Under the pieces are notes generated by a model. That model saw nothing but the letters and a program-made list of their open reading frames with translations, did no database searches and was not told the DNA's origin. A program made the position numbers and the translations under genes. From Phycisphaerae bacterium (GTDB lineage Bacteria > Planctomycetota > Phycisphaerae > SM23-33), in the NCBI GenBank assembly GCA_016929245.1, contig JAFGJE010000042.1, positions 1-61,422 of the forward strand: 61,422 nucleotides of DNA, in the 5' to 3' direction. Positions 1 through 61,422 of the stretch are shown here, piece after piece. The stretch's first letter is position 1. The number at the start of each line of letters is the position of its first letter.

Positions 1-361
1 AGTTGTCCCGGGTTTAACGAGGCCACCGGGAACCTCGGCACGCGACCAACGCCTCACCCGTCCGGTCGAATCCAATTCGCCCCCGGAACAAACGTGCGTT
101 CTGTCTTTTTTGTCATCCTGAGCGAAGCACAGCGAAGTCGAAGGATCCTACGGGTAGCTACGCGTGAGGTCCTTCGACTTCGCTGCGCTTCGCTCAGGAT
201 GACAGCCTATAGTATATCGGAAAATCCCCCATCCGACAACGGCTTGACGAAAGATTCGCCTCCCCGACGCCGATTCATGTTTCAGCCTTGTCGAATCAGT
301 TCTTGCTTGCGTTTTGACGCCTGGGTTTGCATTCTATTAGGTCCTACAGGAACGGAGCACC
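1..361. other. Gene-free 5' edge of the window
   Basis: I see no convincing coding region here. The open frames are compositional shadows without a ribosome-binding site. The stretch holds one copy of the dispersed palindromic repeat (111-204) and, at its right end, the ribosome-binding site of metG (GGAG about 5 bases before the ATG at 362). The first 90 bases could be the 3' flank of a gene outside the window, but nothing identifies it. Confidence 0.5.
111..204. repeat. Palindromic dispersed repeat, copy A
   Basis: The element begins TGTCATCCTGAGC and ends with the reverse complement (GCTCAGGATGACA). The arms continue inward with a second inverted segment containing CGAAGTCGAAGG and CCTTCGACTTCG around a short variable centre. 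Related copies lie at 21912-22005, 53724-53817 and 56691-56790, and a divergent one at 45654-45728. The copies sit between genes. The size and perfect ends fit a REP- or MITE-like element without coding capacity. Confidence 0.85.
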
Positions 362-21911: not shown

Positions 21912-22005
21912 TGTCATCCTGAGCGGAGCGCAGCGAAGTCGAAGGACCTTCCGGGTTTGATGGCGTAAGGTCCTTCGACTTCGCTGCGCTCCGCTCAGGA
22001 TGACA
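21912..22005. repeat. Palindromic dispersed repeat, copy B
   Basis: The element has TGTCATCCTGAGCGGAGCG and its exact complement at the two ends and a short variable centre (TTCCGGGTTTGATGGCGTAA region). It sits between the ABC permease and the GH95 gene on the same strand. Because the arms pair, it could attenuate read-through within the operon. The sequence closely matches copies at 53724-53817 and 111-204. Confidence 0.88.
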
Positions 22006-45634: not shown

Positions 45635-45653
45635 CTTTTGCACACCTACTATC

Positions 45654-45728
45654 TGTCATCCTGAGCCCCTAAAGGATAAACTTCGCTCGAAGACTCGCGA
45701 AGTTTATCCTTTAGGGGCTCAGGATGAC
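45654..45728. repeat. Palindromic dispersed repeat, divergent copy E
   Basis: The ends TGTCATCCTGAGC and GCTCAGGATGAC match the other copies. The interior is different: CCCTAAAGGATAAACTTCGC pairs with GCGAAGTTTATCCTTTAGGG around a short loop. So the same ends bracket an unrelated palindrome. It lies just after the second SDR. Confidence 0.8.
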
Positions 45729-45864
45729 GGTTATCAATCTCCCGCGCAGATCGAAAAGTATTGTTCTTGCATTGTTTTTCGGGTATATTAGTATATGGAG
45801 GAGCGTGTACGAGTCGTATGTGCGTGACTTGCCCGGCCAAGCGAGGCCAACCGGAGTACCCGTC

Positions 45865-56680: not shown

Positions 56681-56690
56681 TCAAAAACGT

Positions 56691-56790
56691 TGTCATCCTG
56701 AGCGCAGGCCCGCAGGGCCGAAGTCGAAGGACCTTACGGGTGGCTAGGCGTGAGGTCCTTCGACTTCGCTGCGCTCCGCTCAGGATGACA
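56691..56790. repeat. Palindromic dispersed repeat, copy D
   Basis: It has the same ends as copies A to C, with six or seven extra bases in the left arm (GCAGGCCCGCAGGGCCG) that do not pair with the right arm. It lies between the convergent AraC and DAHP-synthase genes. Confidence 0.85.
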
Positions 56791-56801
56791 ATATGTGAAG
56801 G

Positions 56802-57821
56802 TTACATCTCCCTTCCGATCGCCTGGGCGATTTTCCGCAGTGAAGGCATCAGTTGCATCAAGGCCGCGGGGGTAATGGACTGCGCGCCGTCGCTCAAGGC
56901 GTGCTCCGGGTCGCAGTGACACTCGACGATCAACCCGTCCGCGCCGGCAGCCACCGACGCCCGGCACATCGCCGGCACGAGATGCGCATGGCCCGTCCCG
57001 TGAGAAGGGTCCACCAGCACCGGCAGGTGCGTTCGTTCGTGGAGTTCCGCGACAGCCGCCAGGGGCAGCGTGTTGCGCACGTATTCCTCGTAGGTCCGAA
57101 TCCCGCGTTCGCAGAGGATGACGTTGGGATTGCCCGCGTTGATGATGTACTCCGCCGCCAGCAGCCATTCGTCAAGCTGGCTGCTCAGGCCTCGCTTCAG
57201 CAGGACGGGCTTTTTCGCTTCCCCGACCGCCTCCAGGAGGGCGTAATGCTGCATGTTCCGCGCGCCGATCTGGAGCACGTCGGCGTGTTCGCAAACCTGC
57301 TCGACGGTCTCGACGCTGACGACTTCCGTGAACACCGCCAGGCCGGTTCGCTTGCGGGCTTCGCTGAGCAGTTTCAATCCTTCCTCGCGCAGGCCCTGGA
57401 AACTGTACGGACTGGTGCGGGGTTTGTACGCCCCGCCGCGCAGACCGATGCAGCCGGCCTGTCGGACCGCTTCGGCGGTGCGGAAAATCTGGTCGGCGTT
57501 TTCCACCGCGCAAGGACCGGCCACCACGCCCACCTTCCTCCCGCCGAGGGGGAATTTCTCCGGGCCGACCGCGATCCGCGAACGCTCCTGTTTGACTTCC
57601 GTGGACGCCATCTTGTACGGCGCGAGGATCGGCACGATTTTCTCGACCATCGGCGCGTTTTCAATCGCGCTTTTATCCACCGACCGTTTGTCGCCGATCG
57701 CGGCGATGACCGTGCGGTCCGTACCGTAAATCGGGTGCTCCTTCAGGCCGTACTCCCGAACGAGATCGATCACATGCTGAACCTGCTCCTTGGAGGCCCC
57801 GGGTTTCATAACGACAATCAT
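56802..57821 (-). CDS. aroF: DAHP synthase, type I-beta (AroF-like)
   Basis: This 339-residue enzyme catalyses the first step of the shikimate pathway, joining phosphoenolpyruvate and erythrose 4-phosphate. Residues 1-75 form an N-terminal ferredoxin-like (ACT-like) regulatory domain. The barrel contains the metal Cys104 (AGPCAVE), [21 protein letters not shown] and [17 protein letters not shown]. The length matches the Thermotoga/Bacillus-type enzymes with this N-terminal domain. Feedback inhibition by aromatic amino acids through that domain is expected. No other aro gene is adjacent. Confidence 0.95.
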
Positions 57822-57934
57822 GCAAATGCTCCTGCTGCGTGTAAAAAAACTCCACGAATTTTATGGTCCCTTGAAACGATTCCACGAAAAATCGGAACCA
57901 GCCTGCAATCTCCTGGAAACAGGCATTTCCTGCT

Positions 57935-58480
57935 TTATATATGAATCGTCTCGCCGGTGGTGCGGGATTTGTTTTCCTGGAGTTTGTCTTCCTGGGATTT
58001 GTCTTCTTTGGGTTTGTTCTCTTTGGGTTTTTCCTCTTCTTTGGGTTTGTCTTTTCGGGCGGGATCGATGGCCGGGCTTTGGATGTCCAGGGAGTGAATT
58101 TTCCACCCCCCGTTTTGCCAGACCAAACCCAGCCGCAGCGTTCCCTCGTCCTTCGCCCAGATCACCTTGTACAAATAGTCCCCTTCGGTGCGCCCTTCAA
58201 AAGTTCGAATTCGATATTGCACCAGGCTGTGCTTCTCCGGGGCGCCGAGATATTCGTGCAGTCCCTTGGCGAGCTTGGATACATCGTCCCGGCGATTGGC
58301 CTGCCGGAAGCTCTCGGTGGTGTAATTCTCATACAACGAATCCACCTGGCCGGCGTCGAGCAGCTTCAGCACGACATCCGTCGTCGCGTCGGCCTGCTGA
58401 TTTTTTCTCGACGTCGAACAGCCGCTCGCTACTCCCGCCGCGACGACGCCGATCACGATCCAACACCAGGTGCGTACCAT
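57935..58480 (-). CDS. Lipoprotein with DUF4019-like domain and charged tail
   Basis: This 181-residue protein has a lipoprotein signal ending VASGC (Cys21), a small alpha/beta domain (about 33-135, with VVLKLLDAGQVDSLYENYT and VWQNGGWKIHSLD) resembling the DUF3887/DUF4019 fold, and a tail (about 142-175) of degenerate KPKEEEKPKENK-type repeats. The tail probably stays extended. The function is unknown. It lies 113 bases after DAHP synthase in the same direction of transcription but may be separate. Confidence 0.8.
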   Translation of the reverse strand: MVRTWCWIVIGVVAAGVASGCSTSRKNQQADATTDVVLKLLDAGQVDSLYENYTTESFRQANRRDDVSKLAKGLHEYLGAPEKHSLVQYRIRTFEGRTEGDYLYKVIWAKDEGTLRLGLVWQNGGWKIHSLDIQSPAIDPARKDKPKEEEKPKENKPKEDKSQEDKLQENKSRTTGETIHI

Positions 58481-58870
58481 CGTTCCATCCTCAATAACCG
58501 GATTTTTGAATCAATCCCACAATCCAAAGCGTGTTATACAGGAAATACCAAAATTGCCATGCGGGTACAACAAAAACCACACGATCACATACACAAAAAA
58601 CCTTTGGAAGAAATCGAATTCCCTCACCAGGCGTTTCCACACAATCGGTTTTCTGCCATTGAATCCATCCGTGTGGATAATTTTGTCCACTTTTCATGGA
58701 TAATATTCTCCATTTTCTCCATGTTCCCTCCAAAGAGCAGCCACAATTCCAACAGAGTCGCCAAAAGCGAATGTTCTATATCATTTTATAAAAAAAGGAC
58801 TTATAGAATAAATTATTAATATTGACTCTTGGTTCATTGATGGCACACGGGTTGCAATATAGTAAACCAG
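58481..58870. other. AT-rich intergenic segment
   Basis: This AT-rich stretch separates the lipoprotein gene (minus strand) from the structured segment. It holds no credible gene. It should contain the lipoprotein promoter. On the plus strand a TTGATG (58837-58842) and TATAGT (58858-58863), with a 15-base spacing, are the best promoter-like pair for transcription into the structured segment. They are weak. Confidence 0.45.
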
Positions 58871-59455
58871 TGAGGACCGGCAAGGAGGCCGTGACAAGTT
58901 AGGAGCGACTACGAAGCCGGTTGTGGCTGGGAACAGTGGCTCCGGGCGAATCAGGCACTCCGACAAAGCCGCACGTCGGACCTGAGGGAACGTCGGTGAG
59001 GCAGGAGACCCCGCCGGTCTGGAAAAACCGTTTAGGGTTTTACGGGCCTTCTACGCGGTGGAACGGTTTCACCATCGGCCGACGCGAACAGGATTTTGTT
59101 CGAGTGCCTGAAACGGCAAGGCGATTCGCGAGCCTCCCACCGGTTCACCGGCGCCGACTCAACAATCCGCCGATCCCGCGCGTGAACATTATTTCATAAT
59201 GTAACACATTCGTCGGAGGCAGGGCCGAAAGAATGCCGCGCGAAATGGAGATCGCACACGCCCGGATGATAACGTTCCGGGGTTCCGGGAAATGGAGGGA
59301 CCGGAATCCCGGCCTAACGCCCAACCGCTCGGGGGGGTCGCTCCCGCCCTTCGCTTCGCCGAAGACGTGTGCAAAATGAATGTCGTGGGTTTACAACCGT
59401 TTCCCGTTCGTGCTCGGCGGGAAACGAAATGAACCCACGACAGGATTTTTGCCCG
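58871..59455 (+). ncRNA. Candidate large structured non-coding RNA
   Basis: About 585 bases without a gene hold closely packed stems. A seven-bp helix GACCGGC/GCCGGTC (58875-58881 with 59013-59019) closes a domain that contains two hairpins: GGAGC/GCTCC with AGCC/GGCT inside (58902-58943), and TCAGG plus TCCGAC with GTCGGA plus CCTGA (58951-58985). A second domain is closed by CGGTGG/CCACCG (59056-59142). Then come ACATTAT/ATAATGT, a 12-bp stem with one G-U pair (59277-59312), and an 11-plus-9-bp hairpin (59381-59442) followed by TTTTT. The G-U pairs favour the plus strand. No known family was recognised. Short open frames here are shadows. Confidence 0.6.
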
Positions 59456-59587
59456 TGGTCCTCCAGGACAACGTCAACCCAACGATACCGTCGCCATCTC
59501 GGGTAACCACTCGCCGGTCAACCACCGGCCTGGGCCCGGCGCGTCCAAAACGACCGCCGGGCCTGTCTCGTATCCGGGGAACCAACC

Positions 59588-59629
59588 AACAAAACGGGCC
59601 TCCGACGGATTCTGTCCGCCGGAGGCCCG
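59588..59629 (-). terminator. Intrinsic terminator of the PEP-CTERM gene
   Basis: On the minus strand a stem of CGGGCCTCCG and CGGAGGCCCG, with an inner CGGA/TCCG pair, closes over a short loop (59595-59629). It is followed by TTTTGTT. It lies about 25 bases after the stop of the gene at 59655. It would keep that transcript from running antisense through the structured segment. Confidence 0.85.
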
Positions 59630-59654
59630 GTACATTTCCGCCACAGGAAGGAAG

Positions 59655-60947
59655 TTATCGTCGCTTACGCAGGATCGCCAACGCGCCGACGCCCAGCAGG
59701 CTCAGCGTCGCCGGTTCGGGAACGGGGCCGCCCCCAGCCGTCGCGCCGTAATTGTTCGCCCAAAGGGTATAATCCGCGGGAGTCACCGAAGAATCCAGAT
59801 TGAAATCCCCTTCCTCCCATTCGTCACCCGTACCGTAATTATTGGCCCATACCGTATAATCCGCCGGAGAAACCGAACCATCGAGAGTCGCATCGCCTAC
59901 AAGCGACGGCAAATAGGTCAGCGTCAGTTCATCCGTCGCCCAGTATCCGTCGTCGGCAAGGATCATCAGGCCGACCGTATTGTCACCGAAGGCCAATCCC
60001 AGCGCCGCCAGCTCCGCTGCCGTCACCGACGCCGACGCGCCGGTCTTGTCGTCGTATTCGCCGTCGCCGTCCAGATCCCAGAGATAATCCGTGATCGTGT
60101 CGCTCTGCGGATCGTAGGAACCGGAGGCGTTCAGCGTTCCGTTGACGTACGAGCCGTGGACGGCCGTGTCCGAACCGGCGTCGGCATGCAGCTGCAACGT
60201 CGGCGAACCGGTCACGGTGGCGGTAATGTTGGAATCAAAATCCGTCGCCATCGTGTAATCACAGGTAATTCCGTACTCCTGCGAATACTCGTTCATATAG
60301 ATCGTCTGTTGCATCGCCTGATTTGTCGTCAACACCGGCGACATGCCCGAACCGCTCACCGAACCGGTCAGGTCGTTGGTCGGAGGAGGATCGTTATAAT
60401 CAGAAATATCCAATGTCAGCGGATTCAGGCCGGGAAGTCCAACCCAACCGAACAGTAAATAGTACTGGACATCCACATCCAGAGAACCATAGGCCAGCGC
60501 CTGGAAATCCTCAATCACATAGCTTCCTCCCGTAACGGGCGCCGAACCGGGAACATTGTTATCTTTCACATTCAGATCTCGTACTCTCGCCCGGGCGCGG
60601 GCGTCGCCCCAGACGGGAAGATCCATATAAAACCACTTGGAATATCCAATCGTGCTGTCACCGTAGATGTCCACGTCGTTCATCTGAATGTGACTATACG
60701 AATTCGAGGGGGTAACCCACAACGCCGCCGCCATCGTTCCACTAACACCGCTGCTGCCGGACCATGAGTCGATGTAATCTTCCGGATCCGTCGAATCACC
60801 TTCATATTGCGTCGCGGTGAAATACACCGACGAACCGGACTGGATCTGAAAATTGAACGCGTACGGATCATCCGCCGTCGCCATGGCGCTTACGAAAAGC
60901 AGGCAAACCGCCGCCCAGATACTCGCGCCGAATCGTAATCGATGCAT
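59655..60947 (-). CDS. PEP-CTERM exported protein with dockerin-like repeats
   Basis: This 430-residue exported protein has a signal peptide (residues 1-25, ending AMATAD), a long beta-rich domain, an Ig/PKD-like stretch (HADAGSDTAVHGSYVNGTL, then DYLWDLDGDGEYDD), and two dockerin-like calcium-binding repeats, GDATLDGSVSPADYTVWANN and GDFNLDSSVTPADYTLWANN. It ends in a PEP-CTERM anchor (VPEPATLSLLGVGALAILRKRR is the anchor region; the core is PEP, a hydrophobic helix, then RKRR). It would be sorted to the cell surface by an exosortase. An AGGAGAAAC box precedes the ATG at 60947. Function is unknown; a role in cohesin-like assembly is only inferred. Confidence 0.92.
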   Translation of the reverse strand: MHRLRFGASIWAAVCLLFVSAMATADDPYAFNFQIQSGSSVYFTATQYEGDSTDPEDYIDSWSGSSGVSGTMAAALWVTPSNSYSHIQMNDVDIYGDSTIGYSKWFYMDLPVWGDARARARVRDLNVKDNNVPGSAPVTGGSYVIEDFQALAYGSLDVDVQYYLLFGWVGLPGLNPLTLDISDYNDPPPTNDLTGSVSGSGMSPVLTTNQAMQQTIYMNEYSQEYGITCDYTMATDFDSNITATVTGSPTLQLHADAGSDTAVHGSYVNGTLNASGSYDPQSDTITDYLWDLDGDGEYDDKTGASASVTAAELAALGLAFGDNTVGLMILADDGYWATDELTLTYLPSLVGDATLDGSVSPADYTVWANNYGTGDEWEEGDFNLDSSVTPADYTLWANNYGATAGGGPVPEPATLSLLGVGALAILRKRR

Positions 60948-61422
60948 GATGTTTCTCCTTCCATTCACTTGGTTAACAAGGCCCTGCAACCCTTACACCG
61001 GGCGCTTACTTACGCGAAAAACAAGATATGTCTCGCGAAGATCCTTTTTTATCGACTAGAGAGCATACCGACACCCGCCGAAGGTCTTTCACGGTTCTTT
61101 CTAGGAAAGTGCCCGTCTGGAAGAATACCCCACAGGCCGAAAGAGAGAATTTTCGCTCCAGACCACATCCCTTTTTCGCATAGATATTCCCACTCTGCTT
61201 CACCCCGCGTAGCGGCTTCGCAGAGCAAAGAGCACGAATCGCAGAGCAGGATTCCCAAACCCCAGTGCCTCAAAAAAAAGGTTCATATCCCATTTGCGGT
61301 GAGTTTATTATGGTAATCACGAGTCTATACCTGTAGAAACAGGGATTCTATTATCTTCGTAGTCCCGGAGGGACGATAGCGTTTAGCCGGGGCGTGAGCG
61401 CCGCGAAGCCCCGGTGGATCGC
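60948..61422. other. Right edge of window: promoter region and a truncated repeat
   Basis: The first part should hold the promoter of the PEP-CTERM gene, but no clear boxes are seen. At the very end two short perfect hairpins lie in a row: GTCCC/GGGAC (61362-61374) and CCGGGGC/GCCCCGG (61387-61414). They are probably the start of another dispersed repeat cut by the window edge. Short open frames in this segment lack ribosome-binding sites, and I do not accept them as genes. Confidence 0.45.

Follow-up and report, generated by a model that had tools for sequence, protein, structure and literature searches.

Free-standing RNA genes with a sigma-54 promoter and an upstream activator, such as CrcZ/CrcY, Qrr1 and GlmY/GlmZ, are the closest described systems to the locus reported here. 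GlmY/GlmZ are linked to sigma-54, and all of these RNAs are roughly 100-400 nt long. The promoters PcrcZ and PcrcY are described as dependent on sigma-N and CbrB (PMC8871633), and Qrr1 as dependent on sigma-54, LuxO and SypG (PMC10162802). A study of the sigma-54 regulon across phyla reports chaperones as enriched among the Planctomycetota targets, with the terms sRNA and non-coding absent from its main text (PMC12316311). Among the matches listed from open-licence PMC titles and abstract starts, none described sigma-54-driven noncoding RNAs in Planctomycetota.

The 61,422-nt stretch of planctomycete DNA analysed here (the window) contains a locus that invites comparison with these systems. 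We lean towards reading 58841-59450 as a free-standing, sigma-54-dependent noncoding RNA gene of about 585 nt, switched by an activator and producing a regulator that acts in trans. Like CrcZ/CrcY with CbrB, Qrr1 with LuxO and SypG, and GlmY/GlmZ, the predicted RNA would be free-standing and have a sigma-54 promoter and an upstream activator; it differs from them in being longer and in having no Rfam match of weight. It would work in the manner of CrcZ or Qrr1, with no kinship in sequence. On this reading an enhancer-binding activator would bind two upstream dyads (58673-58713), RNA polymerase with sigma-54 would start near 58867, transcription would end near 59450, and the RNA would then act in trans, either by pairing with mRNAs or by holding an RNA-binding protein. 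The features on which this rests are collected in Table 1.

Table 1. Features of the predicted RNA gene and its surroundings (window positions), and of the C4-type RNAs found elsewhere
Feature	Position	Strand	Basis
First 18-bp dyad, GTGGATAATTTTGTCCAC, candidate activator (enhancer-binding protein) site	58673-58690		repeat search
Second 18-bp dyad, ATGGATAATATTCTCCAT, candidate activator site	58696-58713		repeat search
Sigma-54 -24/-12 consensus TGGCAC-N5-TTGCA, perfect match, TGGCACACGGGTTGCA	58841-58856	+	pattern scan
Predicted noncoding RNA, about 585 nt	58867-59450	+	start from -12 element, end from T-run
5' domain, 283 nt	58866-59148	+	z -3.58, 1/200 shuffles as good
CGAACAGGATTTTGTTCG: ACAGGA, could sit in a hairpin loop, possible CsrA site	59085-59102	+	motif match
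Middle part, 226 nt, folding like shuffled sequence	59149-59374	+	z -0.71, 49/200 shuffles as good
Terminator-like hairpin (59381-59442), then GGA and TTTTT	59381-59450	+	z -6.22
Terminator-like hairpin of neighbouring PEP-CTERM gene	59595-59629	-	terminator scan
C4-type copy	own genome, C4:31962-31430	-	model R1
C4-type copies	own genome, C6:6637-6699 and C57:23692-23753		model R1
Further C4-type loci	L053, L101, L152, L203, L089, L092-L095, L098, L104		model R1

The promoter is the first pillar of this reading. The 5' end of the predicted RNA is preceded by an element of the -24/-12 type (GG-N10-GC, consensus TGGCAC-N5-TTGCW) that stops 10 nt short of the inferred start. It is the sole sigma-54 match at up to one mismatch in the 61-kb window, for which a mean of 1.25 matches is expected by chance at one mismatch, and it is exact. 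The 4.16-Mb assembly has seven exact matches, this one included; at such a density, the odds that an exact plus-strand site falls in this AT-rich gap of 360 nt are about 3 in 10,000. The number of sites in the own genome proves nothing by itself, since the reversed control also gives seven; across the order (38 genomes), 212 occurrences of the consensus compare with 82 of the reversed control. The equality in the own genome counts against an RNA gene and in favour of a possible, if doubtful, alternative, namely that the segment is an ordinary intergenic spacer in which the sigma-54 match and the stems are due to chance, the 3' hairpin is isolated or a barrier to read-through, and nothing functional is made.

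The surroundings of other perfect sites bear on both readings. Besides the window site, the exact sites of the own genome lie before a Clp_N/AAA gene (L054), before FliK (L056), twice in the C4 region, before a short frame (C30) and within coding-like DNA (C77); those of the sister genome precede Clp_N/AAA (L052), FliK (L050) and Cpn60 (L051). To these we added 100 regions around perfect sites from 18 relatives, among the matches listed, with one G026 site and all G035-G037 sites left out, which together with the own- and sister-genome loci gave 117 perfect sites, distributed over 110 loci. A crude codon score places 20 of these sites in coding DNA; for 89 it shows a coding-like signal no more than 450 nt away, and for the other eight none (one of these, L116, being assessed over 274 nt only). 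A perfect site can thus be a chance occurrence, as C77 in the own genome, and 20 of the 117 sites overall, illustrate, and this again favours the spacer. The window site is one of the 89: a mixed coding-like signal starts at about +283, which weighs against a clean noncoding call.

The second pillar lies upstream. Tandem dyads 5' of a -24/-12 promoter are the layout of enhancer-binding-protein sites, and two similar dyads, 23 bp apart centre to centre, are found 128-168 bp upstream of the sigma-54 site, where they are candidate activator sites; RpoN is encoded in the same genome (E 9.2e-60). A score combining the identity of the two dyads with the palindromy of both, devised after the pair had been noticed, reaches 29, and 2000 dinucleotide shuffles of 58481-58840 give 26 at most. 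The pattern TGGATAATNTTNTCCA, which was built from the two dyads, matches exactly nowhere else in the 4.16-Mb assembly. At up to two mismatches it has 62 matches in the own genome on both strands. Of the 30 that were examined, in 24 loci, only those in L060 and L061, both of which represent the dyad site of the window itself, have a sigma-54 match at a distance of 500 bp or less. One further locus, L076, has a three-mismatch dyad site 180 bp from a sigma-54 match. The dyad match at C5:10355 was set aside as terminator-like, as it follows a gene end and is itself followed by T's. In a collection of genome contigs the tandem pattern has a single match, in Olivibacter, with no perfect sigma-54 site near it.

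Transcription would end at the 3' hairpin. The earlier note had described an 11-bp plus 9-bp hairpin followed by a T-run, and this element is real: its outer stem has 13 predicted pairs and its inner stem 10, and none of 200 shuffles of the last 78 nt folds as well. The T-run is short (T5) and is set off from the hairpin by the 3-nt spacer GGA, for which reason a strict terminator scan does not list it; both features weigh against an RNA gene. The same note had given the neighbouring minus-strand gene, which is of the PEP-CTERM kind, a terminator of its own, and a terminator-like hairpin is indeed present at 59629-59595.

The fold of the remaining RNA is less uniform than had been supposed. 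In the 5' domain, closing helices are predicted at 58874-58880/59140-59146, at 58884-58894/59126-59137 and, with 10 bp, at 58951-58960/59102-59111; mean pair probabilities are 0.82-0.99 for the closing helices and 0.21-1.0 for the other helices of the domain, the ends of which were picked from the fold itself. Among background stretches of 283 nt, 14 of 320 have a z of -3.5 or lower. For the whole segment z is -4.14 on the plus strand, and without the terminal hairpin it is -1.63 (-2.37 on the minus strand), against a background of mean -1.47 and standard deviation 2.31 over 40 places of the window on both strands. Better-than-shuffle folding is confined to the 5' 283 nt and the 3' hairpin. 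Outside the hairpin, helices of at least 7 bp with partners within 160 nt occur at shuffle level, only Watson-Crick helices of at least 6 bp exceed it to some extent (27 against 18.5, P 0.03), and most of the stems listed earlier are what chance gives at 60% GC. The long-range stems that had been named are exact reverse complements (58875-58881 GACCGGC with 59013-59019 GCCGGTC; 59056-59061 CGGTGG with 59137-59142 CCACCG) but are absent from the minimum-energy fold, in which 58874-58880 pairs with 59140-59146 and 59055-59058 with 59011-59014. The return of the fold to background once the terminal hairpin is removed, and the shuffle-like middle part, speak for the spacer.

The strongly folding places of the background include four that contain inverted repeats, and the window start. 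Long inverted repeats at 21912-22005, 45650-45733 and 56690-56791 have TGTCATCCTGAGC in common and apparently represent a dispersed palindromic element. At its start (1-84, minus strand) the contig begins within a gene for tmRNA, truncated on the 3' side (Rfam RF00023, 50.7 bits), and near its end (61361-61405, minus strand) a match to Acido-Lenti-1 RNA scores 27.9 bits (E 0.0016), short of the 37 bits required for gathering.

Folding does not tell the strand, because the two strands are equals in this respect (minus-strand z -4.04 for the whole segment and -3.54 for the 5' domain). The argument that G-U pairs point to the plus strand leaves no trace in the folding energies, and it is the promoter and the T-run that indicate this strand. 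The proposed plus-strand transcript of about 0.6 kb gains support from evidence that the earlier note did not cite, namely the promoter, the dyads, RpoN and the parallel with the C4-type RNAs described below.

Whether the segment is free of genes has a divided answer. Pfam gives no match at E 0.1 or better for any of five small ORFs that overlie the segment or its borders, which upholds the earlier description. The coding score is at shuffled level at 58820-58940 and at the upper edge of the shuffled range at 59000-59180 (-0.09 to 0.06; 90th and 99th percentiles of shuffles -0.08 and 0.04); at 59240-59300, on different strands, it rises to 0.18-0.23, the low range of genes (gene 10th percentile 0.18), and the 3' half is therefore not cleanly noncoding. 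A short protein of a new kind may be encoded there, the small frames having been compared with Pfam alone.

No homologue of the stretch emerged from the sampled genomes, an outcome that favours the spacer and counts against an RNA gene. Searches with blastn, over genome sets that overlap, returned self and three matches at E 0.10-0.19 in the own genome, two matches at E 0.009 in 100 relatives (self included), and self only in 38 genomes of the order; among the matches listed, with two candidates per genome scored, 397 class genomes gave one match besides self (E 9.6e-4) and 392 phylum genomes gave self only. The matches L002-L006 and L059 were rejected as homologues, all lying within frames of at least 200 codons. 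With nhmmer the best match among 201 loci had E 0.34, and phages and plasmids gave no match to the stretch. A single match of the promoter plus first bases in viral contigs, L207, was discarded as lying inside phage genes. In the sister genome a related lipoprotein gene adjoins another gene across a gap of about 590 nt, which contains no sigma-54 match at up to two mismatches and no match to the window RNA. The Rfam search found nothing at gathering score over the stretch; what it lists up to E 10 is weak and belongs to unrelated families. A new conserved class would be marked by homologues with covarying stems, and the sampled genomes gave no homologue.

These genomes do contain a noncoding RNA family of which some copies have a perfect sigma-54 site before them. 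The site at C4:31947-31962 (minus strand) of the own genome is one of the eight without a coding-like signal, and the stretch it precedes carries two GGAGATGAGCGCC hairpins, CTCCTCC hairpins and then GGGCGA...TCGCCC-T7, a hairpin that is likely the end of the RNA. Model R1, built from 13 module copies, finds this family at E up to 0.001 in 27 of the 397 class genomes; counting the own genome, 26 of these are from the window's family, and the remaining one is from the same order. The members have GGAGATGAGCGCC and CTCCTCC hairpin loops, in many cases arranged as two modules, followed by the GGGCGA/TCGCCC-T7 terminator. Over 25 distinct module copies 96.3% of the stem cells are paired and there are 36 double changes, which none of 500 shuffles reaches, and six of the seven module-stem pairs show a double change, which seven of 500 shuffles reach; these figures come from an alignment that had been fitted to the stem, with the kinship of the copies left in. 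Among 21 distinct loci a T-run end is present in 17, an exact sigma-54 site lies within 1300 nt before the first module in three (own C4, G014 and G036) and a one-mismatch site in two, and G024 has an exact site before its second copy. The family has no Rfam match of weight, and it is a better-proven new RNA class than the window RNA, although it lies outside this window.

The C4 copy and the window RNA are alike in having a perfect sigma-54 site and, as their predicted end, a hairpin and a T-run. The C4 stretch is without coding signal; the window RNA has a mixed coding score in its 3' half. The two share no sequence: a local alignment scores 16 against a shuffle mean of 19 (with a 409-nt C4 piece lacking the likely 3' end), nhmmer finds no match between the window RNA and L053, and R1 run over 57000-61422 of the window with filters off gives at best 5.3 bits (E 0.5) on the minus strand. 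The window RNA is thus not a member of the family.

Several further observations concern the neighbourhood of the C4-type RNAs. A reading frame of about 150 aa stands before the RNA in L053 (1894-2331, minus strand) and L092 (800-1276, plus strand), with no Pfam match above cut-off; in the own C4 it has an exact sigma-54 site of its own on its 5' side, as does the stretch before the RNA in G014 C54. The own C4 leader carries GAGGAGCC, partly complementary to the CTCC loops of the C4-type RNA. Downstream of a sigma-54 site in L148 (G014 C24:5853, minus strand), about 740 nt are free of coding signal and have GAGGAGCC and a hairpin with a T-run; R1 does not match this locus at E 0.01, and it is perhaps a further relative of the C4-type RNAs.

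Taken against the spacer, the elements of the window locus coincide: a promoter on the right strand, dyads at the distance of activator sites that none of the 2000 shuffles equals, a 5' part that folds above shuffles and a terminator-like end follow one another in order and at plausible spacing, in a genome that encodes RpoN and over a segment in which no protein family is recognised. It is this conjunction that makes us favour a free-standing RNA gene.

A narrower functional reading, highly unlikely in our view, is that the sigma-54-driven RNA titrates CsrA as a decoy in the manner of CsrB/RsmZ, through ACAGGA at 59088 and 59440 and further GGA sites. The motif within CGAACAGGATTTTGTTCG is one that we take to be a possible CsrA-binding site, and csrA is present in the genome (E 6.5e-24). 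The sequence ACAGGATTTT occurs twice on the plus strand of the window, at 59088 and 59440, and not at all on the minus strand; these are also the only plus-strand occurrences of ACAGGAT, of which the minus strand has five, and both fall in the RNA. Some longer motifs exceed their dinucleotide-shuffle expectation, with ten motifs counted and P values uncorrected: AGGA (6 against 2.5, P 0.03), CAGGA (3 against 0.6, P 0.02) and AGGAG (3 against 0.5, P 0.008). On the other hand, an excess of GGA in loops, as in RNAs of the CsrB/RsmZ type, is not seen: there are 19 GGA in all where dinucleotide shuffles give 16.4 (P 0.25), and five ANGGA where they give 3.6 (P 0.30); 12% of 585-nt stretches of the window have as many GGA. 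In the global fold, moreover, part of 59085-59102 pairs elsewhere, and the 59088 site is not presented in a loop.

The least probable reading is that of the earlier note, in which a large and ornate RNA, a ribozyme or RNP scaffold, would form a class by itself. In its favour are the length, a 5' domain that confidently predicted helices close and that folds at z -3.58, and the lack of an Rfam match of weight; against it are the lack of relatives in the sampled genomes for a kind of RNA that is recognised by conservation, a middle part of 226 nt at chance level and helices of at least 7 bp at shuffle level. With OLE, ROOL, GOLLD and HEARO, presumably all included in the Rfam library searched, the window RNA shares length and a multi-stem prediction, but it has no Rfam match of weight, no relatives in the sampled genomes and a fold mostly at chance outside the 5' 283 nt and the hairpin, so that kinship with any of them is unsupported; HEARO/omega-RNA was rejected for want of an Rfam match of weight over the stretch.

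Returning to the sigma-54-dependent RNA gene, its wider meaning can be sketched at two levels. More speculatively, and with low confidence, the window RNA could be the founding example of large RNAs of a new kind, switched by sigma-54 and evolving fast. In this bacterial family sigma-54 could then control long structured RNAs (this orphan and the C4-type family) beside genes for heat shock and flagella, so that the stress response would have an RNA arm. The C4-type family serves here as a control, showing that in these genomes a perfect sigma-54 site can indeed stand before a noncoding RNA, and the 585-nt orphan, whose sigma-54 control region is complete, offers a concrete gene to test. Provided that its transcript is real, sigma-54 in these bacteria would switch on long noncoding RNAs, besides chaperones and flagella.
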